64,000 nucleotides of DNA from an uncultured Lachnospiraceae bacterium. GTDB taxonomy: Bacteria > Bacillota > Clostridia > Lachnospirales > Lachnospiraceae. The notes beneath the pieces were generated by a model, which was not told the origin of the DNA, did no database searches, and worked only from the letters and a program-made list of their open reading frames with translations. Below, piece after piece: positions 4,551 to 58,122 of this stretch. Numbering within the stretch: the first letter of the stretch is position 1; each line of letters starts with the position of its first letter. Position numbers and translations under genes: made by a program. Location of the stretch: the NCBI GenBank assembly GCA_947630125.1, contig CANRGO010000001.1, forward strand, positions 26,246 to 90,245. The letters are read 5' to 3'.

Positions 4551-6722
4551 ATGGAAGAACAGGAACTAATAGACTATGAATTTGGAACGGTACAAGAAGT
4601 AGAAAAAAGGGATTTTCTCAGAATGTGGATACAGATTCTGTATTTCCCTTTTCTTTTTGTGTATCTGGAATTGTTTTTTCATCTCTATATGAGACTGCAG
4701 GTGGACTACTTGCTCCTGATTCTTCCCTTTGGCGTCTCCGCTGGGTTACTGCTTTCTCCCTGTTTGTTATTATTACGTGGTAATTTACGAGCAGTCGTCC
4801 AGTTTGTTCTAACTTTTTTTCTTGCCTTTATCTATGTGGCTGAACTTCTTTGCAAGGCCATTTTACAGCAGTATTATCAGTTTTTTAGCGTGTTGTCTAC
4901 GGCAGCAGGTAATAAATTAAGTGATTACAAAGATGCAGTTTTCCAAGGAATCCTAGAAAACTATGTTGGAATCATTGGATTATTTCTGCCGGTTTTCTTA
5001 AGTATAGTTTTGATTCGCTGGTTGAAAAAAGAGAATGAGATGCATATTCTGTCAGCGATTTTAAGTATATTTTTTGGAATTATGATGCATATCGGTGTTC
5101 TGGTTCTGATGAATGGCAGCTGGCAGGGGGATTTTACGCCAGCGACTTTATATCGCATGGATACTAATGTGGATGATCAGGTAGAACAGTTAGGTATACT
5201 TACTATGCTGCGACTGGATGTAAAACACACCTTATTCGGTATTAACAAGGAACGAGATACAGATTTTGTTGAAATACCTTCTTATCAGCAACAGGGAAGT
5301 CTTGTGCTGCCAAAAGAAGAAACAAAAGAAGTGGAAGAAGAGGTAGTAGAAGAAACCGTGATAGAGGAAGTAGAAGTACTGGATACTTCTCCCAATCAAT
5401 TGGAAATTGACTTTGATGATCTGCTTGCAAAGGCAGAGAATGAAGATCAAAAGTGGCTGGCATCCTATTTCAAAAGTCAGACTGCCACGTTGAAAAATGA
5501 GTACACCGGAATGTTTGAAGGTTACAATCTGATTTTTATAACAGCAGAAGGCTTTTCCAAACATATCATTGATGAACAACGAACGCCAACCCTATATAAA
5601 ATGAGTACCCAAGGGTTTGTATTTCCTAATTTCTACACAGCCCTTCATTATACAAGTACTTCTGGAGGTGAATTTCAGAATCTGGTAGGTTTATACCCTA
5701 AAAATGGGAATCCAATCAGTTTGAAAGAGACAGGAGTTAGGCAAACGAGTCTTCCATTTACCCTGGCCCATCAGTTAAGTAAGCTTGGATATCGAACCAT
5801 TGGTTATCATAACAATGGAAATATGTATGGAAGAAACCTTTCCCACCCTAATCTGGGATATGAATGGATTCAAGGTGGAGAAGGCTTTGAAATGGAAAAG
5901 AACGCCTATGGAAATAATGTGTGGCCTCAATCCGACCTTTATATGATAGAACAAACCATACAGGATTACATTCAGGAAGAGCATTTTCATGCTTATTATT
6001 TGACGGTGAGTGGACACATGCCTTATAATTTTACCGGAGATAGTATGGCAGTAAAAAATCGAGATGCGGTGGCAGATGCTCCTTATTCCGATGAAACAAA
6101 AGCCTATCTGGCAGCAAATCTTGAGGTGGAAAAAGCCTTGACTTATTTGGTTGAGCAACTTACGGCAGCAGGGAAATTAGAGAATACCCTGATTGTTTTA
6201 AGTCCAGATCATATTCCTTATTTTGATGTGGATATTATCGAAGAGTTATCTGGAAAAGTGTATGGGGGAAGTGCCATTGAGAAGCTAAAAGAGTCCGATT
6301 TGGACTTTGATTTATATAAGAATTCCTTAATCATCTGGTCGGCCAGTATGGAGAAACCCATAGAAGTCGTAAAACCTTGTTCCCAGGTGGATATCCTGCC
6401 AACCTTAAGTAATCTGTTAGGACTTCCCTATGATTCTAGACTGCTTGCAGGAAGTGATATTTTATCTACAGCACCTGGACTGGTGGTATTCACTTCCAGT
6501 AGTTTTTTAACGGATATTGGAATTTACAATCGCTATAAAGAAAGCTTCACACTGAGGGATGGTGTGGTCATGTCGGAAGAAGAGATTTCAAATTATGTAA
6601 CCATTATTAAAAAAATTGTAAAAAATAAATTAGAAGCATCCGTGCTGATTCTGGAACAAGATTATTATGGAAAAATCATACCAGACAGTAAGGAAAATCA
6701 GGAGGAATTAACAAATGAGTAA
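4551..6722 (+). CDS. LtaS-like membrane sulfatase / phosphoglycerol transferase family
   Basis: N-terminal TM segments, Glu-rich linker, sulfatase-type domain ([47 protein letters not shown]). Confidence 0.88.
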
Positions 6723-7800
6723 AATTATTTTGACCGGAGACAGACCTACAGGAAAACTTCATGTTGGGCATTACGTAGGATCATTAAGAGGCCGTGTGGA
6801 ATTACAGAATTCCGGAAAATTTGACCATATTTATATTATGATAGCAGATGCTCAGGCTTTAACCGATAATGCCGATAACCCAGAAAAGGTACGCCAGAAT
6901 ATTATTGAAGTTGCCCTGGATTATTTATCTGTGGGATTGGATCCTTTAAAATCCTCCATGTTTATTCAATCTCAAATTTCAGAATTATGTGAGTTAGCAT
7001 TTTACTATATGAATCTGGTAACTGTATCAAGGTTACAGAGAAACCCTACAGTAAAAAGTGAAATTCAAATGAGAAATTTTGAAACAAGTATTCCAGTTGG
7101 ATTTTTTACCTATCCCATCAGCCAGGCAGCAGATATAACTGCCTTTAAAGCAACAACAGTGCCAGTTGGAGAAGATCAGGCACCTATGATTGAACAGACC
7201 AAAGAAATCGTTCGTAAATTCAATGGAACCTATGCAGAAGTATTGGTGGAACCAGAAATTTTACTGCCAGATAACAAAGCCTGTCTTCGTTTACCAGGAA
7301 CCGATGGAAAAGCAAAGATGAGCAAATCTTTGAATAACTGTATTTATCTGTCAGATTCAGAAGAAGATGTGAAAAAGAAGATTATGAGTATGTATACGGA
7401 TCCAAATCATCTTCGAGTGGAAGACCCAGGACAAGTTGAAGGCAATTCTGTCTTTATTTATCTGGATGCATTTAGCAAAACAGAGCATTTTGGAGCCTAC
7501 CTTCCTGATTATGCTTCTCTACAGGAATTAAAAGAACACTATATGCGTGGTGGACTTGGAGATGTAAAAGTGAAGAAATTCCTGAATGCCGTTTTACAGG
7601 AAGAACTTGCACCAATCAGAGAACGCAGAAAACATTTTGAAAAAGATATACCAGAAGTATATCAGATTCTGAAAAAAGGAACCGAAGAAGCAAGAGAGAA
7701 GGCAGCAGCCACACTTTCTGAAGTAAAGGAAGCTATGAAAATCAATTATTTTGAAGATCTTACGATGATTCAGGAACAGGCTAAGAGATATTCAGAGTAA
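6715..7800 (+). CDS. trpS: Tryptophan--tRNA ligase
   Basis: Class I aa[28 protein letters not shown]; overlaps upstream ORF by 8 nt. Confidence 0.95.
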
Positions 7801-47467: not shown

Positions 47468-47884
47468 CTAGGTGCAAATTTCCCCGTTTTCTTTTCGGTT
47501 ACAACGCTCGTCAATTTGGTCACGGAATGTTTCTATATAAGAGGCACCAAACTGATGCATCAGCTCAAGAATTGGGATGATGCGACTTCCAACCTCTGTG
47601 ATTTCATATTCTACTTTGGGCGGTACGGTTGGATATACATGGCGGTAGATTAGATGATCTTCCTCAAGACTTCTTAACTGTTTTGTTAACATCTTTTGTG
47701 TAACGTCAGGCATTTTCTTTTGAATCTCATTAAATCTTAGAATTTTATTACTTAGGAACCACAAAATCATTATTTTGCGCTTGCCTGAAAGTAGTTTATA
47801 TGCCAAAACCATAGGACATATATCATCCTTCAGGCAAGTTTCTCTCATAAAGCAGTTCTCATGTTTTTTTTCATTTTTATTCAT
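47468..47884 (-). CDS. HxlR-family winged-helix regulator with Cys-rich N-terminus
   Basis: CPMVLAYKLLSGKRKIMILWFLSNKILRFNEIQKKMPDVTQKMLTKQLRSLEEDHLIYR; Cys in ENCFMRETCLKDDICP. Confidence 0.9.
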   Translation of the reverse strand: MNKNEKKHENCFMRETCLKDDICPMVLAYKLLSGKRKIMILWFLSNKILRFNEIQKKMPDVTQKMLTKQLRSLEEDHLIYRHVYPTVPPKVEYEITEVGSRIIPILELMHQFGASYIETFRDQIDERCNRKENGEICT

Positions 47885-47921
47885 AGAATGTCACCAATCC
47901 CTTTTCTGTTTCCGTTTAATG

Positions 47922-47957
47922 TAGTATAATAATTACATATTTAAATTCATTATACTA
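47922..47957. promoter_or_regulatory. Perfect dyad TAGTATAAT-N18-ATTATACTA in the hxlR/ndh2 intergenic region
   Basis: 9-bp arms at 47922-47930 and 47949-47957. Confidence 0.5.
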
Positions 47958-48064
47958 TAGTTTCTGTTACTTTTATCCAATTTTATGTTTTTTTTATATA
48001 TAATTTATAGATTTCCTATGGAGTTACTAGCCAAAGGTATCCTCAAGGAAACTATAGAACTTAA

Positions 48065-48103
48065 AAGTACCTACTTGTATAAATGCAGGATACTATATAA
48101 AAT
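48065..48103 (+). promoter_or_regulatory. Candidate promoter TTGTAT-N17-TAAAAT overlapped by dyad AAGTA-CC-TACTT
   Basis: Dyad 48065-48076; -35 48075-48080; -10 48098-48103. Confidence 0.4.
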
Positions 48104-48185
48104 TGGAAAATAGTATGTTTATGCTTAAAAGTATGCTCAAATTTGTTAAAAGTTTGACAAAAACAAACAACTAAGGAGAATGTTG

Positions 48186-50192
48186 ATGAAAAAAAGAGTT
48201 GTTATTGTTGGCGCAGGATATGCAGGTATCCTGACTGCAAAAAAATTAGCAAGAAAGTTTAAAAAAGTCAGTGATGTGGAGATTACAATTATCGATAAAA
48301 ATCCATTTCACACGATGTTAACCGAGCTTCATGAAGTGGCTGCAGGCCGTGTGGATGAAGACAGCATTAAAATTAGTTTGAAAAAAGTTTTTGCTGGAAG
48401 AAAAGTTGATGTAAAACTTGATAATATTACAAGTTTTGATTTTGAAAAAAAACAGGTTATCGGTGAAGAAAACACGTATGAATATGATTATTTGGTGTTA
48501 TCAGCTGGAAGTAAACCAACGTTTTATGGAGTAACCGGAGCAGAGGAAAATACCTTTAAATTATGGTCTTATGATGACGCAGTTTTATTAAAAGAACATA
48601 TTTTAAATATATTCCGCAAAGCTGGTAGAGAAAGAAACGAAGAACAAAGACGTAAAATGCTAACATTTTACGTGGTTGGAGCTGGCTTTACCGGTGTTGA
48701 AATGATCGGAGAACTTGCTGAGTATGTTCCTTTTCTTTGTGAACAGTATGGAGTTGAAAGAAATGAAGTTACACTGGTAAATATTGATGGTCTGAATAGA
48801 CCTATCCCAAATCTGCCAGAAAAATTATCAAATAAAGTAAGCAAACGTCTACATAAAATGGGAGTTGAACTTTGTCTGGAAGCACCCGTTGTTGAAGTTG
48901 GAGCTGATTTCATCACTTATAAAAAAGATGGAAAAGATGTAACGAAACCTGTATCTACTGTAATCTGGGGTGCTGGAATTCAGGCTTGTGACATTTCAGA
49001 AAGCGCAGCAGAATGCATGGAAAAACAACGTGGAAACAGAATCCAGGTAGATAAATTTTTAAGATCAACCACCAACGAAGATGTGTATGTAATTGGTGAT
49101 AACATGTATTTCGTTGCAGAAGGTGAACAGGCTCCAGTTCCACAGATGGTGGAAAACTGTGAACAAAGTTCTCATACAGCAGCACATAATATTGTTTCTC
49201 AGATAACAGGAAAAGGTAAAATGGAAGAATATAAACCAGCGTTCCACGGAGTAATGGTTTGCATCGGTGGAAGATATGGGGTTGCCCATGTTGGATTACC
49301 AGGACACTTCTTTAGTCTGCCATCCTTCCTTGCCATGTTTTCAAAGCATTTTATTAATATTATTTATTTTATACAGGTACTTGGTTGGAATAAGGTGTTT
49401 AACTATATTAAACATGAATTCTTTACCATTCGTAATTGCCGTAGTTTTGTAGGTGGACATTTCTCAAATCGTACCCCTAGCTTTTTATTGGTACCAATTC
49501 GTTTCTGGCTTGGAGCTGTCTGGCTATTTGAAGGTATTATGAAAATCGTAGAAGGTTGGTTTGAGGCACCTAAATTAACTGGATTTTTCGGTGGAGCAAG
49601 ATCATGGTATGACAGTATTTTAAATATTGGCAACACAACAGCTCAGGTTGCAACTGACGCAGTTAGTGCAGCGACCGGTGCAACTGACGCAGTTAGTGCA
49701 GCGACCGGTGCATCTGAAGCAGGAGCAGTGGTTGTTCCAACGGGAGAAGTACTTATTAACTTTGATATTCTTGGACTGATTAAAATCTTATTTGTAACTG
49801 GAAAAGATTTAGCGGAATCGAAAATTGGTGATTTTGCATTACTTTTAGATATACCAGTTATGAATTGGTTTGTTGACACAGTCATTCTTCCAAATGATGG
49901 AATGCAGTTATTTATGCAGATTTTCATTGTAGTAGCAGAAATTTTAATTGGACTTGCACTTATGGGTGGTTTATTTACTACACCAGCAGCAGCATTTTCA
50001 CTTGTTTTACAGTTTATGTTTATTTGTACAACCGGTCTGTATCTTGGAACCTTCTGGATGATATTTGCAGGTATTGCAGTATTAATCGGAGCAGGCAGAA
50101 CCTTGGGACTTGACTATTATGCAATGCCACAACTAAAGAAATTATGGAAGAAACTTCCAATCGTACGTAAATCATATTTATATCATGATTAA
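48186..50192 (+). CDS. ndh2: Type II NADH dehydrogenase-like flavoprotein with membrane (DoxX-like) C-terminus, EET-type Ndh2
   Basis: VVIVGAGYAGILTAKKLARKF, VVGAGFTGVEMIGELAE, YVIGDN; C-terminal TM segments from about 49490; ATG 48186 after AAGGAG. Confidence 0.85.
   Translation: MKKRVVIVGAGYAGILTAKKLARKFKKVSDVEITIIDKNPFHTMLTELHEVAAGRVDEDSIKISLKKVFAGRKVDVKLDNITSFDFEKKQVIGEENTYEYDYLVLSAGSKPTFYGVTGAEENTFKLWSYDDAVLLKEHILNIFRKAGRERNEEQRRKMLTFYVVGAGFTGVEMIGELAEYVPFLCEQYGVERNEVTLVNIDGLNRPIPNLPEKLSNKVSKRLHKMGVELCLEAPVVEVGADFITYKKDGKDVTKPVSTVIWGAGIQACDISESAAECMEKQRGNRIQVDKFLRSTTNEDVYVIGDNMYFVAEGEQAPVPQMVENCEQSSHTAAHNIVSQITGKGKMEEYKPAFHGVMVCIGGRYGVAHVGLPGHFFSLPSFLAMFSKHFINIIYFIQVLGWNKVFNYIKHEFFTIRNCRSFVGGHFSNRTPSFLLVPIRFWLGAVWLFEGIMKIVEGWFEAPKLTGFFGGARSWYDSILNIGNTTAQVATDAVSAATGATDAVSAATGASEAGAVVVPTGEVLINFDILGLIKILFVTGKDLAESKIGDFALLLDIPVMNWFVDTVILPNDGMQLFMQIFIVVAEILIGLALMGGLFTTPAAAFSLVLQFMFICTTGLYLGTFWMIFAGIAVLIGAGRTLGLDYYAMPQLKKLWKKLPIVRKSYLYHD
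49650..49709 (+). repeat. Two perfect tandem copies of a 30-bp unit inside ndh2
   Basis: GCAACTGACGCAGTTAGTGCAGCGACCGGT x2 encoding (ATDAVSAATG)2. Confidence 0.95.
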
Positions 50193-50215
50193 TAGAAAAG
50201 AAATTGGGTGAACCT

Positions 50216-51166
50216 ATGGAGATGTTTACATATGAGAAAGCGCTTGAGCAGGTGAAGCAGGAAATAAACCAAGCGCTTACCAGGTCTCCCCGTATGATTC
50301 GTGAGTATCTGACCCATTTGACTTTATCCCAGGGGAAAATGATACGTGCTGTTTCGGTTTTAACCGCTGCGCTTGATCAGGATGGTTACTGCAGTTATGA
50401 AGCAATTCGTGTTGCAGCAGCTATTGAAATTATTCATTTATCATCGCTTGTACATGATGATATTATTGATAACGCTGATTTACGCAGAGGACATGAAACA
50501 TTACAGAAAAAATATGGGAAGAGAACAGCCGTAATCTGCGGTGATTATCTCTTAAGCCTGGCCTTAAAAATGATTACAAACCTAGAACATAAAAATAAGT
50601 ATTTGGAAATACAAATACCAGATTATATTAGCAAATTATGTCTTGGGGAGTTAAATCAACACATTAATAATCATAACTTAGATTTATCTATGTTTGATTA
50701 TATTAAAATTATTGGTGGAAAAACTGCTGCACTTTTTGAAGCCTCTTTTTTTGCCGGAGCTGTAATTACTGGTGAATCTCAGAAGAATTGTAAAAAGTAT
50801 GCAAAAATCGGGTACTATATTGGAATGATTTTTCAATTAATGGATGACTGTATGGATTTTGAAACCACAGTAGAAACCATGAAAAAACCGGTGCAGTCGG
50901 ACTATGAACAGGGTGTTATCACCTTGCCTTTGATTTATACATTTTTTCAGAAACCAGAATTTGCAAGAAAAGCAAAAGTAGAAGGTATCAGTCGAAATGA
51001 AATCAATCAGGCTGTTGAAGATGCAAAAGGACTGGGGTATACCCGTTCCATTGTTACTCGCTATTATAAAAAAGCAGAAAAACTTATACAGTCACTTTCC
51101 CTGATAGCGGAGAAAGAGGACAAAATGTTAAGTATTTTAAACAAATCAGCACGAATGATTGCCTGA
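50216..51166 (+). CDS. dmkB: Polyprenyl diphosphate synthase (DmkB-like)
   Basis: LVHDDIIDNADLRRG first DD-rich motif, second motif QLMDDCMDFE. Confidence 0.85.
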   Translation: MEMFTYEKALEQVKQEINQALTRSPRMIREYLTHLTLSQGKMIRAVSVLTAALDQDGYCSYEAIRVAAAIEIIHLSSLVHDDIIDNADLRRGHETLQKKYGKRTAVICGDYLLSLALKMITNLEHKNKYLEIQIPDYISKLCLGELNQHINNHNLDLSMFDYIKIIGGKTAALFEASFFAGAVITGESQKNCKKYAKIGYYIGMIFQLMDDCMDFETTVETMKKPVQSDYEQGVITLPLIYTFFQKPEFARKAKVEGISRNEINQAVEDAKGLGYTRSIVTRYYKKAEKLIQSLSLIAEKEDKMLSILNKSARMIA

Positions 51167-51194
51167 CTTGATAAGAGAAAGGAATTAGAAGTTT

Positions 51195-52094
51195 ATGATA
51201 CAGAAATTTTTCCGCTATACAGAATTAAGAACAAAAATCACTAGTATTTTTACTTTTTTCATGTCACTTGCATTTTTGTTTTATCAAAAAGTGGAGATTG
51301 ACTGGTATAAAACAGGTATATTTTTTCTGGGAATGCTTGGTTTTGACTTAACAACAACAGCAATTAATAATTACATAGACTCGAAAGATAATGGACAGGC
51401 ATTGGAATTTAAAAGAAAGACCTCTTTGTTTATTATCTATGGGTTATTTGCATTTAGCACTGTGTTTGGCTTATACCTTGCATACATGACCGATTTAATC
51501 ATTCTTCTGGTAGGTGGAATTTGCTTTGTTTGTGGGATTTTTTATACCTATGGACCCTTGCCGATTTCAAGAATGCCGCTGGGAGAATTGGTTTCTGGTT
51601 TCTTTTATGGAATGCTAATTCCCTTTATTATTTTTTATATATCCTATCCAGAAGGAACTTTTCTGGAATATAGTTTGAGCCTGGAACAAGTATCCTTAAC
51701 ATTAAATGTAGTTCCCTTTCTGGTATTATTTTTATTATCACTGATTCCTTTTTCAGTAACAGCCAACATTATGCTGGCAAATAATATTTGTGATTTGGAA
51801 AAGGATATTCTGGTAAAGAGATATACATTACCATATTACATTGGAAAGGCTGCCTTGCCATTATTTGTGGGGCTGTATGGATTATCTTTTATATCATTGA
51901 TTCTGATGGTCGTATTTCAGATTCTTTCCCCTATATGTCTTGTGGCCTTACTTGTGGCAGTTCCAGTTTGGAAAAATATACAGCGTTTTCTTCAAAAACA
52001 GGAGAAAGCAACAACCTTTGATATTTCCATTAAGAATTTTATTTTCATAATGGGAGCAGTAACAGTAGTGATTTTTATATCAGCAATGATTTAA
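51195..52094 (+). CDS. dmkA: UbiA/MenA-family prenyltransferase (DmkA-like)
   Basis: AINNYIDSKDNG and NNICDLEKDILVKRYTLPYYIGK motifs; polytopic membrane protein. Confidence 0.8.
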   Translation: MIQKFFRYTELRTKITSIFTFFMSLAFLFYQKVEIDWYKTGIFFLGMLGFDLTTTAINNYIDSKDNGQALEFKRKTSLFIIYGLFAFSTVFGLYLAYMTDLIILLVGGICFVCGIFYTYGPLPISRMPLGELVSGFFYGMLIPFIIFYISYPEGTFLEYSLSLEQVSLTLNVVPFLVLFLLSLIPFSVTANIMLANNICDLEKDILVKRYTLPYYIGKAALPLFVGLYGLSFISLILMVVFQILSPICLVALLVAVPVWKNIQRFLQKQEKATTFDISIKNFIFIMGAVTVVIFISAMI

Positions 52095-52144
52095 AAATAA
52101 ATTTTATGATGGTGTCATTTAAATGGCAGAAAACGGAGGATAAA

Positions 52145-53146
52145 ATGAAAAAAATCGTATCGTTATTACTTGCTATAGTTCTTGTAGTAGGTACACTTAC
52201 CGCTTGTGGTAGTAAAAGCGAACCAGCAAAAACAGGTCTTGCTGTTGTAACATCCGTGGGGAAATCAGCAAGTGCTGGTGAAGAAGATGGATTAGCTCAG
52301 GCAGATTCTACTATTGTAGCTGTTTTAGTTGGAGCTGATGGAAAAATTCTTGCATGTGATATTGATGCAGCTCAGACAAAAGTGAACTTCTCAGCAGAAG
52401 GTAAACTTTTAACAGATGTGGCTTCAACATTTAAATCAAAACAGGAATTAAAAACTGAATATGGAATGAATGCAGCTTCTTCTATTGGTAAAGAATGGAA
52501 TGAGCAGGCAGATGCTTTTGCAGCATATGTAGTTGGAAAAACAATTGAAGAAGTTAAAAGCATCGCTGTAACTGAAGAAGGTGTTCCAACAGACGCTGAT
52601 CTTGCAGCAACTGTAACTTTAAAAGTTGGTGGTTTTATTGCAGCTGTTGAAAAAGCAGTAGCAAATGCTAAAGAAATCGGAGCAAACAGTGATGATGTTC
52701 TTGGTCTTGCTGTAAATACAGAAATCTCTAAATCAAAAGATGCAACTGCTGAAGAAGCAGGTCTTGCACAGATTTATTTAACTTACTCAGTTGTGACAAA
52801 AGATGGCAAAGGAAAAGTAACCAGCTGTTTACTCGATGCATCTCAGGCAAATGTAAACTTTGATGCAACTGGTGTTATTACAACAGATTTAGCTGTTGCA
52901 CTTGCTACAAAACAGGAACTTGGCGCTGATTATGGAATGAAAAAAGCGTCTGCAATTGGTAAAGAATGGAATGAACAGGCAGATGCATTTGCAGCATATG
53001 TTGTTGGTAAAACAGCAGATGAAGTAAGTGGTATTGCAGTAGATGGAGAAGGACTTGCAGCAGATGCAGACTTAATCAGTTCTGTAACTGTACATGTTGG
53101 TCCATTTATCCAGGTTGTTGGTAAAGCTCTTGCAAATGCAAAATAA
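52145..53146 (+). CDS. pplA: PplA-like two-repeat lipoprotein, candidate flavinylated EET carrier
   Basis: Lipobox LTACGS; two homologous ~150-aa repeats sharing IGKEWNEQADAFAAYVVGKT; context. Confidence 0.72.
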   Translation: MKKIVSLLLAIVLVVGTLTACGSKSEPAKTGLAVVTSVGKSASAGEEDGLAQADSTIVAVLVGADGKILACDIDAAQTKVNFSAEGKLLTDVASTFKSKQELKTEYGMNAASSIGKEWNEQADAFAAYVVGKTIEEVKSIAVTEEGVPTDADLAATVTLKVGGFIAAVEKAVANAKEIGANSDDVLGLAVNTEISKSKDATAEEAGLAQIYLTYSVVTKDGKGKVTSCLLDASQANVNFDATGVITTDLAVALATKQELGADYGMKKASAIGKEWNEQADAFAAYVVGKTADEVSGIAVDGEGLAADADLISSVTVHVGPFIQVVGKALANAK

Positions 53147-53151
53147 GAGTT

Positions 53152-53184
53152 GTTCTTGACGAATAATCACAAGAACTTTATAGT
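53152..53184 (+). promoter_or_regulatory. Promoter TTGACG-N17-TATAGT embedded in inverted repeat GTTCTTG/CAAGAAC
   Basis: -35 53156-53161, -10 53179-53184; arms 53152-53158 and 53170-53176. Confidence 0.6.
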
Positions 53185-53188
53185 ATGA

Positions 53189-53254
53189 TTAGTACCCAGA
53201 TTTTGGGGATGCATCTCTTATATCAGGATGCATCCCCATTATTATCGGTACTAA
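53189..53254 (+). other. Nested hairpin in apbE 5' leader
   Basis: Outer TTAGTACC/GGTACTAA (53189-53196/53247-53254), inner GGGGATGCATC/GATGCATCCCC (53205-53215/53227-53237). Confidence 0.7.
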
Positions 53255-53276
53255 AAATGAGTTGGAGAAAAAAACT

Positions 53277-54332
53277 GTGAAAAAAATACGAAACGTGATG
53301 CTGATAATGGGCATAATGATCGTTACACTGACAGCTTGCGGACAACCAAAGAAAGAGCGTTATGAAGCAAGTTTTTTAGAATTGTTTGATACGGTAACAA
53401 AAGTCGTAGCATACTCGGAAAGTAAGGAAGAATTTTCCAGTAAAATGGATTTGATATATGCTGAACTGGAAGTATATCACCAGTTGTATGATATTTACCA
53501 TGATTACGAAGGAATTTCTAATATCAAAACAATCAATGATCAGGCTGGAATTAGTCCGGTTAAAGTAGAACAGAAAATTATTGACTTATTATACTATGCA
53601 AAAGATATGTATGAATTAACCGATGGAGAACTTAATATTGCATTTGGAAGTGTTCTTCGCTTATGGCATGAGGAAAGAACTGCAGGAATTGATAATCCTG
53701 AAGATGCAAAACTTCCAGATCCTGAAACATTAAAAGAGAAAGCTCTGCATTGTGATATAAATCAAATGATTATTGATGAAGAAAATTCAACTGTTTATCT
53801 TTCTGACCCAGACATGCGCCTTGATGTAGGTGCCATTGCAAAGGGCTACGCAACAGAGATGATAAGCCGTTATATGATAGAAATTGGTTTGGAAAATAGC
53901 ATGATATCCGTAGGGGGAAATGTACGAACTATGGGAATGAAGGTGGATGATAGTATGACTCAGCAACCATGGAGTGTGGGCATCCAGAATCCCGATACCA
54001 GTAGTGAAAATCAAACCTTGTATATCTTGAATCTAAGTAACCAATCCTTGGTTACCAGTGGAGTTTATGAACGCTATTATACTGTAAATGGAAAGCAATA
54101 CCATCACATCATTGATAAAGATACGCTGATGCCAGCCAACTATTATGAATCCGTATCGATTATTTGTGAAAATTCAGGCTTGGCGGATGTTCTCTCGACT
54201 TCCATTTTTAATATGCCTTATGAGCAGGGAGCTGCCTTAATTGAACAATTGGAAGGAACTGAAGCCCTTTGGATTTTAAGCGATGGAACACAGAAGAAAA
54301 GTGATGGATTTGATGCTTTGATAAAACAATAG
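53277..54332 (+). CDS. apbE: ApbE-family FMN transferase lipoprotein (FmnB-like)
   Basis: Lipobox LTACGQ, LFDTVTKVVAY, DVGAIAKGYATEM, SVGGNVRTMG; GTG start after GGAG. Confidence 0.9.
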   Translation: MKKIRNVMLIMGIMIVTLTACGQPKKERYEASFLELFDTVTKVVAYSESKEEFSSKMDLIYAELEVYHQLYDIYHDYEGISNIKTINDQAGISPVKVEQKIIDLLYYAKDMYELTDGELNIAFGSVLRLWHEERTAGIDNPEDAKLPDPETLKEKALHCDINQMIIDEENSTVYLSDPDMRLDVGAIAKGYATEMISRYMIEIGLENSMISVGGNVRTMGMKVDDSMTQQPWSVGIQNPDTSSENQTLYILNLSNQSLVTSGVYERYYTVNGKQYHHIIDKDTLMPANYYESVSIICENSGLADVLSTSIFNMPYEQGAALIEQLEGTEALWILSDGTQKKSDGFDALIKQ

Positions 54333-54341
54333 GAGTATATT

Positions 54342-54707
54342 GTGAAAAAAAATGATATAACATTAATTGCTATCATTGTTGTGATAGTTATGATATTCTT
54401 TGTGTTTTACGCATTTCAAAAAGAAACAGGAAGTACCCTGGTGGTGACTGTAGACGGTGAATTCTATCAGGAATATTCTTTGCATGAAAATCAAACCATA
54501 ACCATAGAGGATGAAGATGGTCATAAAAATGTGTTTGAAATAAAAGATGGTGTTGCAACTATGATAGAGGCAAGTTGTCCAGATAAACTCTGTATTTCGC
54601 AGCGTCCGATTTCATTTAATCATGAAACCATCGTATGTTTGCCGAATAAGGTTGTTTTAACTGTTGAAAATGCAAAAACTAGTGAAGTTGATATGATTAG
54701 TCAATAG
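54342..54707 (+). CDS. eetA: NusG domain II-containing membrane-anchored protein (EetA-like)
   Basis: N-terminal TM; VTVDGEFYQEYSLHENQTI, EASCPDKLCISQRPISFNHETIVCLPNKVVLTV. Confidence 0.82.
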   Translation: MKKNDITLIAIIVVIVMIFFVFYAFQKETGSTLVVTVDGEFYQEYSLHENQTITIEDEDGHKNVFEIKDGVATMIEASCPDKLCISQRPISFNHETIVCLPNKVVLTVENAKTSEVDMISQ

Positions 54708-54719
54708 CGAGGAATCAAA

Positions 54720-55223
54720 ATGAAAACAAAACATGTGGCAACATTTGGTATGTTGATTGCTCTTGCCTTTATTTTAAGTTACATTGAAACCATGATACCT
54801 GTAATGATACCTGTCCCTGGTATTAAGTTAGGACTTGCGAATCTGGTGGTTTTGGTTGCGCTGTATAGTATGGGTTTTCGAGAAGCTTTTTTATTATCCA
54901 TGATTCGAATTGTGTTGGTTGGGTTTACCTTTGGAAGCCTTTCCACCATGTTATTTAGTTTTGCAGGCGGTATTTTAAGTTTGACTTTAATGGCAGTTTT
55001 TCAAAAAAGTAAACTGTTTTCTATGACAGGGATTAGTATATTAGGAGGCTTAGGACATAATATAGGTCAGATTTTAGTGGCAATGCTTGTTGTACAGAAT
55101 CTAAACCTGGTCTATTACTTACCAATTCTTATGATATCAGGTTTGATAACTGGTACTGTGGTAGGTCTGGTAGGAGCCTTGATTGTGAGAAGTCTACGTA
55201 AGTATCAACCTTTAAAAGAGTAA
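54720..55223 (+). CDS. eetB: Gx transporter-family membrane protein (EetB-like; 'heptaprenyl diphosphate synthase component I' type)
   Basis: ALAFILSYIETMIPVMIPVPGIKLGLANLVVLVALYSMG. Confidence 0.85.
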   Translation: MKTKHVATFGMLIALAFILSYIETMIPVMIPVPGIKLGLANLVVLVALYSMGFREAFLLSMIRIVLVGFTFGSLSTMLFSFAGGILSLTLMAVFQKSKLFSMTGISILGGLGHNIGQILVAMLVVQNLNLVYYLPILMISGLITGTVVGLVGALIVRSLRKYQPLKE

Positions 55224-55270
55224 AGTTGGCAGAGTTTTATAAAAAATTCTGCTTACTTTATTTTTTTTTC
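55222..55270 (+). terminator. Intrinsic terminator closing the EET cluster
   Basis: AAAGTtgGCAGA...TCTGCttACTTT followed by a long T-tract. Confidence 0.85.
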
Positions 55271-55359: not shown

Positions 55360-58122
55360 ATGAATCAATTACAAGAATCTGCTTTCAAAGATTTACAGAT
55401 TGCTGGAAAAAGTTATTATTTTTTTGATATAGAGGAACTTGAAAAAATGGGGTATCAAATTCATAAATTACCCTACTCCATTCGAATTTTATTAGAATCC
55501 TTACTCAGGCAAATGGATGACTATACCATAAACATGGAACATGTGGAACGCCTTGCAGGTTGGAAAAGTGATAACAAAGAAGCAGTAGAAATACCTTTTA
55601 AACCCTCACGTGTTATTTTACAGGATTTTACAGGTGTTCCGGCAGTGGTAGATCTGGCTAGTATGCGAGCAGCAATTGCAACCTATCTAAAAGAGAAAAA
55701 TCAACTTGAAAAGCAAGATAAAGAAGCAATGAATGAAGAGATAGAAAGACTGGTTCAGTTAATCAATCCAGAAGTACAAGTGGATTTGGTTATTGATCAC
55801 TCCTTACAGGTAGATTTTTATGGAAATAAAGAAGCGCTGGATGACAATTCCAGATTAGAATTTGAACGCAATCAGGAACGTTATGAATTTTTAAACTGGG
55901 CACAAAAATCCTTTCAGAATTTTTCCGTAGTTCCGCCAGCGACTGGTATCGTTCATCAGGTTAATTTGGAGTATCTGGCAAAAGTCGTGATGCAGAAAGA
56001 AGTTGGAGATAAAACCATTTTATATCCAGATACATTGGTAGGAACTGACTCTCATACCACCATGATCAATGGACTTGGCGTCCTTGGCTGGGGTGTTGGT
56101 GGAATCGAAGCAGAGGCAGGTATGCTAGGACAGGCATCCTACTTACCTCTCCCAGAAGTAATCGGTGTGGAGTTAACTGGAAGCCTGCCACTGGGAGCAA
56201 CAGCAACTGACCTGGCATTGAAACTCACACAGATTCTTAGAAGCTATGGAGTGGTCGACAAATTTGTGGAATATTTTGGAGAAGGTGTAGCAAGACTTTC
56301 TCTTGCAGACCGGGCAACCATCGCAAATATGGCTCCTGAATATGGAGCGACCTGTGGCTATTTTCCTGTAGATGAAGAGACCGTACATTATTTAAAACTG
56401 ACAGGTCGAAGTGATGAACAGATACAATTGGTTGAAACTTATTTTCGTGCCAATCATTTATTCCAGGATTATCAGCAGTAACCAGAATATATAACCGTTA
56501 TACAGTTAGATTTATCCACTTTAAAACCATCCTTGTCAGGGCCAAAACGTCCTCAGGATCTGTTGCATTTAGAAGAAATGAAAGAGGCCTTTGATAAAGC
56601 AGTTGTTACAGAAATAGGGGTCAGCGGATATGGATGCGATAAGGCAGAACTTGAGAAGCAGGCCTTTGTACATACCAAACAGGGAAAAGAGTTTACTTTA
56701 AAAACGGGTTCTGTATTAATTGCAGCCATTACATCTTGTACGAATACCTCAAACCCCTCCGTAATGCTAGGAGCAGGGCTTCTTGCAAAAAAGGCAGTAG
56801 AAAAAGGTTTGAATGTTCCGGACTACGTAAAAACCTCACTTGCTCCAGGGTCAAAAGTTGTATCAGGATATCTTGAGGCTGCTGGTCTTCAATCCTATCT
56901 GGATCAGTTGGGATTTCAGGTAATCGGTTATGGCTGTGCAACCTGTATTGGAAACTCGGGACCTTTGATGGAAGAAATTGAGGAAGCAATTGTAAAAGAA
57001 GATTTATTATGTGCCTCAGTATTATCTGGAAATCGTAATTTTGAAGGAAGAATTCATCAGAAAATCAAGGCAAATTACCTGGCATCACCACCACTTGTGG
57101 TAGCATATGCTTTGGCTGGAACCGTAAGAATTGATTTGCAGACAGAACCGATTGGCTTTGATCAGGACCAGAATCCAGTTTATTTAAAAGATATCTGGCC
57201 AAGTGCAGACGAAATTACAGAAGCGGTGTCTTCTTTTGTGAAACCTGAATTATTCCAAAGTAAATATACAAACCTTTATCAAAGCAACGATAACTGGAAT
57301 GCGATCAAACAAGAGCAAAGCAGTTTGTATCAATTTAGCGATGACTCTACCTATATTAAAAATCCTCCTTATTTTGAAGGGTTTTCTTTAGAAACACGAA
57401 AGCTACAAACAATTACCAATATTAAGCCCTTGGCAATATTTGGAGATAGCATTACCACAGACCATATTTCACCAGCGGGTGGCTTTTCAGTAAAAACACC
57501 AGCAGGAGCCTATTTATTGAAACAAGGTGTTTTCAAAGAACAGTTTAATTCCTACGGTTCCAGAAGAGGAAATCATGAAATTATGATGCGTGGAACTTTT
57601 GCCAATGTGAGAATTCGCAATAAGATGGCAGATGGCATGGAAGGTGGATATACAAAATTGGTAGAAACGGAAGAACTTATGGATATCTATAGCGCCAGCA
57701 TGGAATATAAGAAGCAAAAACAAGCCCTTATGATTTTAGCTGGTAAAGATTATGGCATGGGTTCCTCCAGAGACTGGGCTGCAAAGGGACCGAATCTATT
57801 AGGAGTTCAGGTGGTTCTTGCAGAAAGTTATGAAAGAATTCATCGCTCCAATCTGGTGATGATGGGAATTCTCCCTTTACAATTTTTACCAGGAGATTCT
57901 GTAGAAAAGTTTCAATTAACAGGAGCAGAAGAATTCTCCGTTATAGTTCCTGCTGAGCAAAAACCTCAGATGAAGGTTCTTGTGGAAGCATCTGAACAAG
58001 GCTCTTTAAAGGCAAGTTTTTCAGCAATTCTTCGCTTTGATTCACAGATTGACTTTGATTTTTATAAACATGGTGGAATTTTACCTATGGTTTTAAGAGA
58101 AAAATTAACCGCTAACAAATAA
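55360..58122 (+). pseudogene. acnA: Aconitate hydratase interrupted by one in-frame TAA at 56479-56481 (nonsense, read-through candidate or sequencing error)
   Basis: ORFs 55360-56481 and 56533-58122 share one frame; [67 protein letters not shown] all intact. Confidence 0.85.

Follow-up and report, generated by a model that had tools for sequence, protein, structure and literature searches.

Flavin-based extracellular electron transfer (EET, FLEET) has been described in Listeria and Lactiplantibacillus. The Listeria pathway comprises eight proteins, one of which is FmnA (PMC8906456), and the Listeria work consulted gives PplA and FrdA as flavinylated. In Listeria EetB is the S component of an ECF-type FAD exporter and deletion of eetA leaves no EET phenotype, so neither protein should be assumed to be an electron conduit (PMC9973259). 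The flavin (riboflavin)-dependent iron reduction of L. plantarum requires Ndh2 and EetA/B but not PplA, DmkA or DmkB, and its route is unknown (PMC9888254). The electron step from Ndh2 or quinol to outside flavins in Gram-positive bacteria remains unsettled; a flavinylated Ndh2 loop, as predicted below, would be a simple candidate for it. An operational criterion for FLEET loci is the presence of an NADH dehydrogenase with a transmembrane part within an apbE gene cluster (PMC8238504).

Gene content and synteny of the EET locus

The window (the whole stretch of DNA analysed, 64,000 nucleotides) originates from an uncultured Lachnospiraceae bacterium with a 2.64-Mb, 170-contig assembly that is 84.7% complete. 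Eight ORFs at 47468-55223 (Table 1) coincide with those of an earlier sequence-only reading, which had proposed an apparently complete EET cluster of seven consecutive plus-strand genes with a divergent HxlR-family regulator upstream. All seven family assignments were verified using Pfam and NCBIfam, or profile comparison in the case of the lipoprotein, and the regulator was likewise recognized by Pfam. Neither Ndh2 (Pyr_redox_2, NDH-2 fold) nor the lipoprotein (aligned by hhalign to FMN_bind-type PplA) turned out to belong to an unrelated family. The claim of completeness has to be narrowed: the seven families are present, but no gene for FmnA (ECF-T) was found in 47468-55223; four CbiQ/ECF-T genes are located elsewhere in the genome.

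The block shares Ndh2 with a membrane C-terminus, DmkA, DmkB, PplA, FmnB/ApbE, EetA and EetB with the Listeria/Lactiplantibacillus FLEET systems, and differs from them in lacking FmnA, in carrying the HxlR regulator and in the divergent motif of its PplA-like protein, DLxSSVT instead of DxxSG[AV][ST]. The operational criterion is met, as judged by Pfam and fold rather than by KEGG number. The locus also encodes the other components by which FLEET is recognized: an extracytosolic ApbE/FmnB (lipobox LTAC), DmkA and DmkB (by family; the GerC3_HepT match of the DmkB-like protein is below the equivalog cut-off and the NCBIfam match of the DmkA-like protein is below its cut-off), EetA, EetB, and a PplA-type lipoprotein with a lipobox and two FMN_bind-related repeats (by profile). 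The ApbE/FmnB protein matches FMN transferases in the PDB (4xdt, E 1.8e-43; 7esa, E 2.5e-36) and is the only ApbE found in the source genome, the sole Pfam FMN_bind protein of which sits in an rnf-like locus. ApbE is encoded somewhere in all 16 genomes checked.

Table 1. Features of the EET locus and its intergenic region (positions in the window).
Feature	Position	Strand	Basis
hxlR, HxlR-family regulator, divergent from ndh2	47468-47884	-	Pfam HxlR 4.9e-29
Candidate HxlR operator, GGTATCC..AGGA then AGTACCTxCTTG	48036-48078	+	by-eye recurrence, no statistics
ndh2, type II NADH dehydrogenase with membrane domain	48180-50192	+	Pfam Pyr_redox_2 1.9e-36
30-nt tandem repeat, 2.5 copies, 95% matches, in TM1-TM2 loop	49649-49722	+	Tandem Repeats Finder
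Predicted flavinylation motif 1, DAVSAAT, residues 493-499, acceptor Thr499	49656-49676	+	motif conserved in homologue loops
Predicted flavinylation motif 2, DAVSAAT, residues 503-509, acceptor Thr509	49686-49706	+	motif conserved in homologue loops
Polyprenyl diphosphate synthase, DmkB-like	50204-51166	+	Pfam polyprenyl_synt 2.7e-57; GerC3_HepT 2.1e-60
UbiA/MenA-like prenyltransferase, DmkA-like	51195-52094	+	Pfam UbiA 6e-17; NCBIfam DHNA polyprenyltransferase 9e-69
PplA-like lipoprotein, two FMN_bind-related domains	ORF 52106-53146, likely start 52145	+	start judged from sequence
PplA-like domain 1 motif, DLAATVT, candidate acceptor Thr	52598-52618	+	aligned with DAISGVT
PplA-like domain 2 motif, DLISSVT, candidate acceptor Thr	53069-53089	+	aligned with DAISGVS
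apbE, ApbE/FmnB FAD:protein FMN transferase	53262-54332	+	Pfam ApbE 1e-68
EetA-like NusG domain II protein	54342-54707	+	Pfam NusG_II (PF07009) 1.5e-32
EetB-like protein	54720-55223	+	Hpre_diP_synt_I (PF07456) 7.2e-43; weak ECF S-component match, ECF_trnsprt 9e-5
Terminator-like hairpin with T run	55228-55253	+	consensus scan

Synteny comparison, a check proposed for the sequence-only reading, revealed that the same gene set recurs in dozens of Clostridia, far beyond chance. Among 62 homologous ndh2 loci with enough downstream sequence, genes near ndh2 encode DmkB in 60, ApbE and PplA in 56 each, DmkA in 48, EetB in 41 and EetA in 37. EetA and EetB are both absent near ndh2 in 18 of the 62, which fits their not being an obligatory electron path. 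Because the families hold and the synteny recurs in dozens of Clostridia, the assignment of the block as a genuine FLEET-type gene set stands at the level of sequence; gene content and synteny are observed directly, while EET activity itself is inferred.

No menB gene scored above the NCBIfam cut-off in 18 EET genomes, the source genome included, and no MqnC was found in the source genome, suggesting external DHNA as a possible source of the quinone head group, despite the cluster's own DmkA/DmkB. In L. plantarum this head group is acquired from outside (PMC9888254).

The PplA-like lipoprotein has no Pfam hit. Its profile, comprising 53 homologues, aligned over the whole length with EET-locus lipoproteins carrying DAISGV[ST] (hhalign 99.4%, E 5e-22), one of which was scanned and matched Pfam FMN_bind at 1.1e-6. 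PDB entry 2kzx, an uncharacterised protein containing DAISGATIKV, was matched in profile hmmsearch by the PplA-like type at E 8e-4 and by FMN_bind-type PplA homologues at 3.6e-56. A Foldseek search of the PDB with the AF2 model (pLDDT 93.9) returned nothing significant. In both domains the acceptor column is T/S and the first motif column is D/E in 53/53 homologues. By these profile comparisons the assignment as a PplA-like lipoprotein with a divergent motif holds, its flavinylation being unproven.

Motifs in the TM1-TM2 loop of Ndh2

The sequence-only reading had identified correctly the family and the membrane C-terminus of Ndh2 but overlooked a flavinylation-type motif in one of its loops. 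Residues 1-400 form the NDH-2 domain (Foldseek to 5kmq, E 2e-40, TMt 0.96). The C-terminal membrane domain (about 434-670) comprises four helices (434-457, 573-596, 600-617, and 626-637) in the AF2 model, the mean pLDDT of which is 86.9, with low confidence in segment 486-518. Pfam DoxD/DoxX exceeded the cut-off in the C-terminal domains of three homologues (DoxD, PF04173, 4e-9 in one homologue; DoxX 1e-7), while the domain of the source protein gave only sub-threshold similarity; it is considered a putative distant relative of DoxD/DoxX. Full-length Foldseek yielded, among the matches listed, only NDH-2/flavoprotein-domain matches and is uninformative on the C-terminal fold. The four-helix domain is the part of Ndh2 that may be related to DoxD and DoxX, the thiosulfate:quinone oxidoreductase subunits; unlike these, it is fused to NDH-2, bears a long motif-carrying loop and has no thiosulfate context.

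The content of K+R per 100 aa is 18.7 before TM1, 4.2 in the TM1-TM2 loop and 19.9 at the C-terminus. Since positive charge flanks the loop and is scarce within it, the loop is predicted to be extracytosolic, an orientation that is inferred.

A 30-nt tandem repeat in this loop encodes TDAVSAATGA twice. Both DAVSAAT copies fall in the low-confidence segment 486-518, and the model defines no FMN site. The strict pattern D-x-x-[ST]-G-A-[ST] is not met, DAVSAAT having Ala in place of Gly. ApbE needs only the seven-residue motif, and replacement of Gly by Ala kept about 50% flavinylation in one tested protein (PMC12052999).

Ndh2 homologues were pooled from three homology searches, with longer flanking sequence added. 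In 96 proteins less than 90% identical, the motif D..[ST][GAS]A[ST] was found 131 times within 9,759 loop residues, spread over 75 of the proteins, and not once in the 55,092 residues of the same proteins outside the loop. Shuffled loops contained on average 0.98 matches, with a maximum of 5 in 1000 shuffles, and the reversed motif gave 2 matches, excluding chance low complexity as the source of the loop motif. The density was 13.4 matches per 1000 aa in the loops vs 0.035 in other ORFs of at least 200 aa from the same loci, with Ndh2 and PplA left out. Canonical DxxSGA[ST]/DxxTGA[ST] was present in 16/96 proteins, compared with 0.28 in shuffles, and such forms (DGTSGAT, DATTGAS) occur also in short loops that are not Ala-rich and share little else. 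Across loops of differing length and sequence, the Asp and the acceptor Thr/Ser are retained. The membership test, namely that the loop motif be conserved in a predicted extracytosolic region and commoner than chance, is met.

Among 148 distinct Ndh2 sequences, the strict D..[ST][GAS]A[ST]-type motif is present in 98 (1 to 7 copies) and a relaxed form in 22, while 24 have no more than [STA]G[AS][ST] and 4 lack even this; the relaxed classes were defined post hoc and without shuffle control. The 24 core-only sequences fall mostly in a single clade whose short loop reads like KLVSGSS or KLVAGAS; by inference, this clade is probably the Bacilli/Listeria type. The loop of the source Ndh2 is long and carries two full D-x-x-S-x-A-T motifs, while Bacilli-type loops are short and carry only [SA]G[AS][ST]. 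In the Bacilli-type proteins of loci L161-L178 this tetrapeptide is fixed in the short outer loop without Asp at -6, and could, in Ndh2 of the Listeria/Lactobacillus type, act as a flavinylation site of diverged sequence.

In the mid-point-rooted Ndh2 tree, proteins with the strict motif lie on either side of the root. The two motif-less proteins of loci L010 and L011 are nested within the tree and are, from their position, interpreted as nested losses. Directly downstream of one of these two motif-less ndh2 genes, that of L011/L144, lies a gene for a lipoprotein that has multiple FMN_bind domains (PF04205, 1.8e-65) and three copies of DxVSGAT; its position in L144 is 6057-7430.

Adjacent motif copies in one protein are identical over 21 nt in 1/72 pairs, and codon differences at the D, A and T positions are synonymous in 93 cases vs 7 that are not, an excess partly conditioned by the motif definition, which restricts those positions. 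The loops of L121, L096, L103, L110 and L078 harbor 7, 4, 4, 3 and 4 copies, respectively, in several of them at a 14-residue spacing, with diverged synonymous codons.

ApbE is encoded within 10 kb in 79/100 Ndh2 loci. This adjacency discriminates little as a control, being seen for 54/65 motif-positive and 25/35 motif-free proteins; most of the latter carry a relaxed or core motif.

That the motif is present, conserved and restricted to one loop was observed directly, and as a conserved sequence feature the predicted multi-flavinylated NDH-2 loop is strongly supported, its chemistry being inferred. The kind of gene cluster is already known; what is apparently undescribed, in the papers searched, is the conserved flavinylation motif in Ndh2. 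Reviews and surveys of ApbE substrates do not mention covalent flavin on Ndh2 (PMC8238504, PMC11334425, PMC12052999, PMC10339131), and full-text literature searches found no flavinylation motif in it, although an earlier mention elsewhere, e.g., in supplements, is not excluded.

Other flavinylated proteins resemble Ndh2 only in part. The fold of NqrB, the membrane subunit of Na+-NQR, is unrelated to that of Ndh2. Both are polytopic membrane proteins with ApbE-attached FMN on threonine, known for NqrB (PMC12052999) and predicted for Ndh2, but NqrB has one site within an ion-pumping complex and Ndh2 has 1-7 predicted tandem sites. SaFMN3 and CbFMN4 (PMC10339131) share with Ndh2 the occurrence of several ApbE motifs per protein; flavinylated Flavodoxin_4/FMN_red proteins (PMC11334425) resemble it as flavoproteins that gained a motif through an inserted segment or an unstructured added one. 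These last two groups are extracytosolic soluble proteins or folded FMN_bind domains, in contrast to the bare motifs in the loop of a membrane dehydrogenase.

Proposed electron transfer through Ndh2

We consider it probable that the EET-type Ndh2 is itself a substrate of ApbE and relays electrons from quinol via tethered FMNs to PplA or free flavin. NADH would reduce the FAD of the cytosolic NDH-2 domain, from which electrons would pass to (demethyl)menaquinone made with DmkA/DmkB. The quinol would then reduce FMNs covalently bound to Thr499 and Thr509 in the flexible outer loop beside the four-helix DoxD/DoxX-like domain, and these could in turn reduce the FMNs of the PplA-like lipoprotein or free flavins, or pass electrons straight to acceptors. 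FAD for ApbE would be supplied on the outside by EetB acting with ECF subunits. Both the flavinylation and the order of these steps are inferred. Weighing against this reading are the Ala in place of Gly in the source copies, the low confidence of the loop model, the weak discrimination by ApbE adjacency, the lack of any biochemical report of flavinylated Ndh2 in the papers searched, and the missing menB and MqnC, which make the origin of the quinone uncertain. A flavinylated loop offers a possible explanation of electron exit from the membrane and, by our own inference, would explain the PplA-independent iron reduction of L. plantarum. NDH-2 would then join the known ApbE substrates, as a membrane dehydrogenase whose cofactor-attachment sites are arrayed in tandem repeats. 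Only tentatively, and at rather less than even chances, can Ndh2 be seen as a one-polypeptide conduit from NADH to the outside, in which FAD on the cytosolic side, four helices that interact with quinone and 1-7 FMNs tethered outside are combined, a feature ancestral to the whole family in Clostridia and Bacilli; if true, this would account for Ndh2-dependent, PplA-independent EET.

The loop could also be flavinylated without being an obligatory EET relay, its FMNs serving for flavin docking or storage or for an enzyme other than PplA. Such a role would be compatible with the loop motif, the nearby ApbE and the 6/62 loci with no PplA in range, but we regard it as somewhat unlikely given that PplA and ApbE are each found near ndh2 in 56/62 loci and that the Ndh2-dependent iron reduction of L. 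plantarum proceeds without PplA, favoring output from Ndh2 itself (PMC9888254).

The assumption of an ordinary FLEET locus, where Ndh2 reduces only quinone, no carrier other than PplA is flavinylated and the loop is a cofactor-free Ala/Ser/Thr-rich spacer, agrees with the published Listeria model (PMC8906456, PMC9888254). The low complexity and low model confidence of the loop are consistent with a spacer, as is a recent tandem duplication giving rise to the DAVSAAT copies of the source protein. It is nevertheless unlikely: composition-matched shuffles give about 1 match vs 131, the reversed motif gives 2, loops without an excess of Ala also carry the canonical motif, no match lies elsewhere in the same proteins, and the acceptor Thr/Ser and Asp are retained in loops variable in length and sequence.

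Detoxification under NADH/quinone stress, controlled by a redox-sensing HxlR, instead of extracellular respiration is very unlikely. The divergent regulator, with its conserved trio of N-terminal Cys and its weak RrpA/RrpB similarity, would suit it, as would the failure to find a DHNA synthesis gene, which implies external quinone. But detoxification offers no evident role for ApbE, for the S component of the flavin exporter or for the PplA-like lipoprotein, and in Listeria and Lactiplantibacillus a set of this composition underlies EET (PMC9973259, PMC9888254).

Regulatory elements and flanking sequence

The HxlR protein contains three N-terminal cysteines, C11, C17, and C23, and its similarity to the redox regulators RrpA/RrpB is sub-threshold; divergent HxlR genes with the same Cys pattern are present in about ten other loci. 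Elements similar by eye to the candidate operator listed in Table 1 occur in the intergenic regions of loci L034, L037, L039, L042, L043, L044, and L056. A perfect inverted repeat, TAGTATAAT/ATTATACTA, is located at 47922-47957, on the hxlR side of the hxlR-ndh2 intergenic region (47885-48179). Like the intergenic elements, it represents a candidate HxlR operator.

At the other end of the block a "strong" terminator had been proposed; the hairpin and the T run are present, but the adjective is generous for a G+C-poor stem with G-C in 3/11 pairs. Further downstream, an aconitase gene (55360-58122) is split by one in-frame stop at 56479-56481, for which a nonsense mutation, a sequencing error and recoding are all possible. 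Its second half continues in the same frame, and both halves match Pfam Aconitase.
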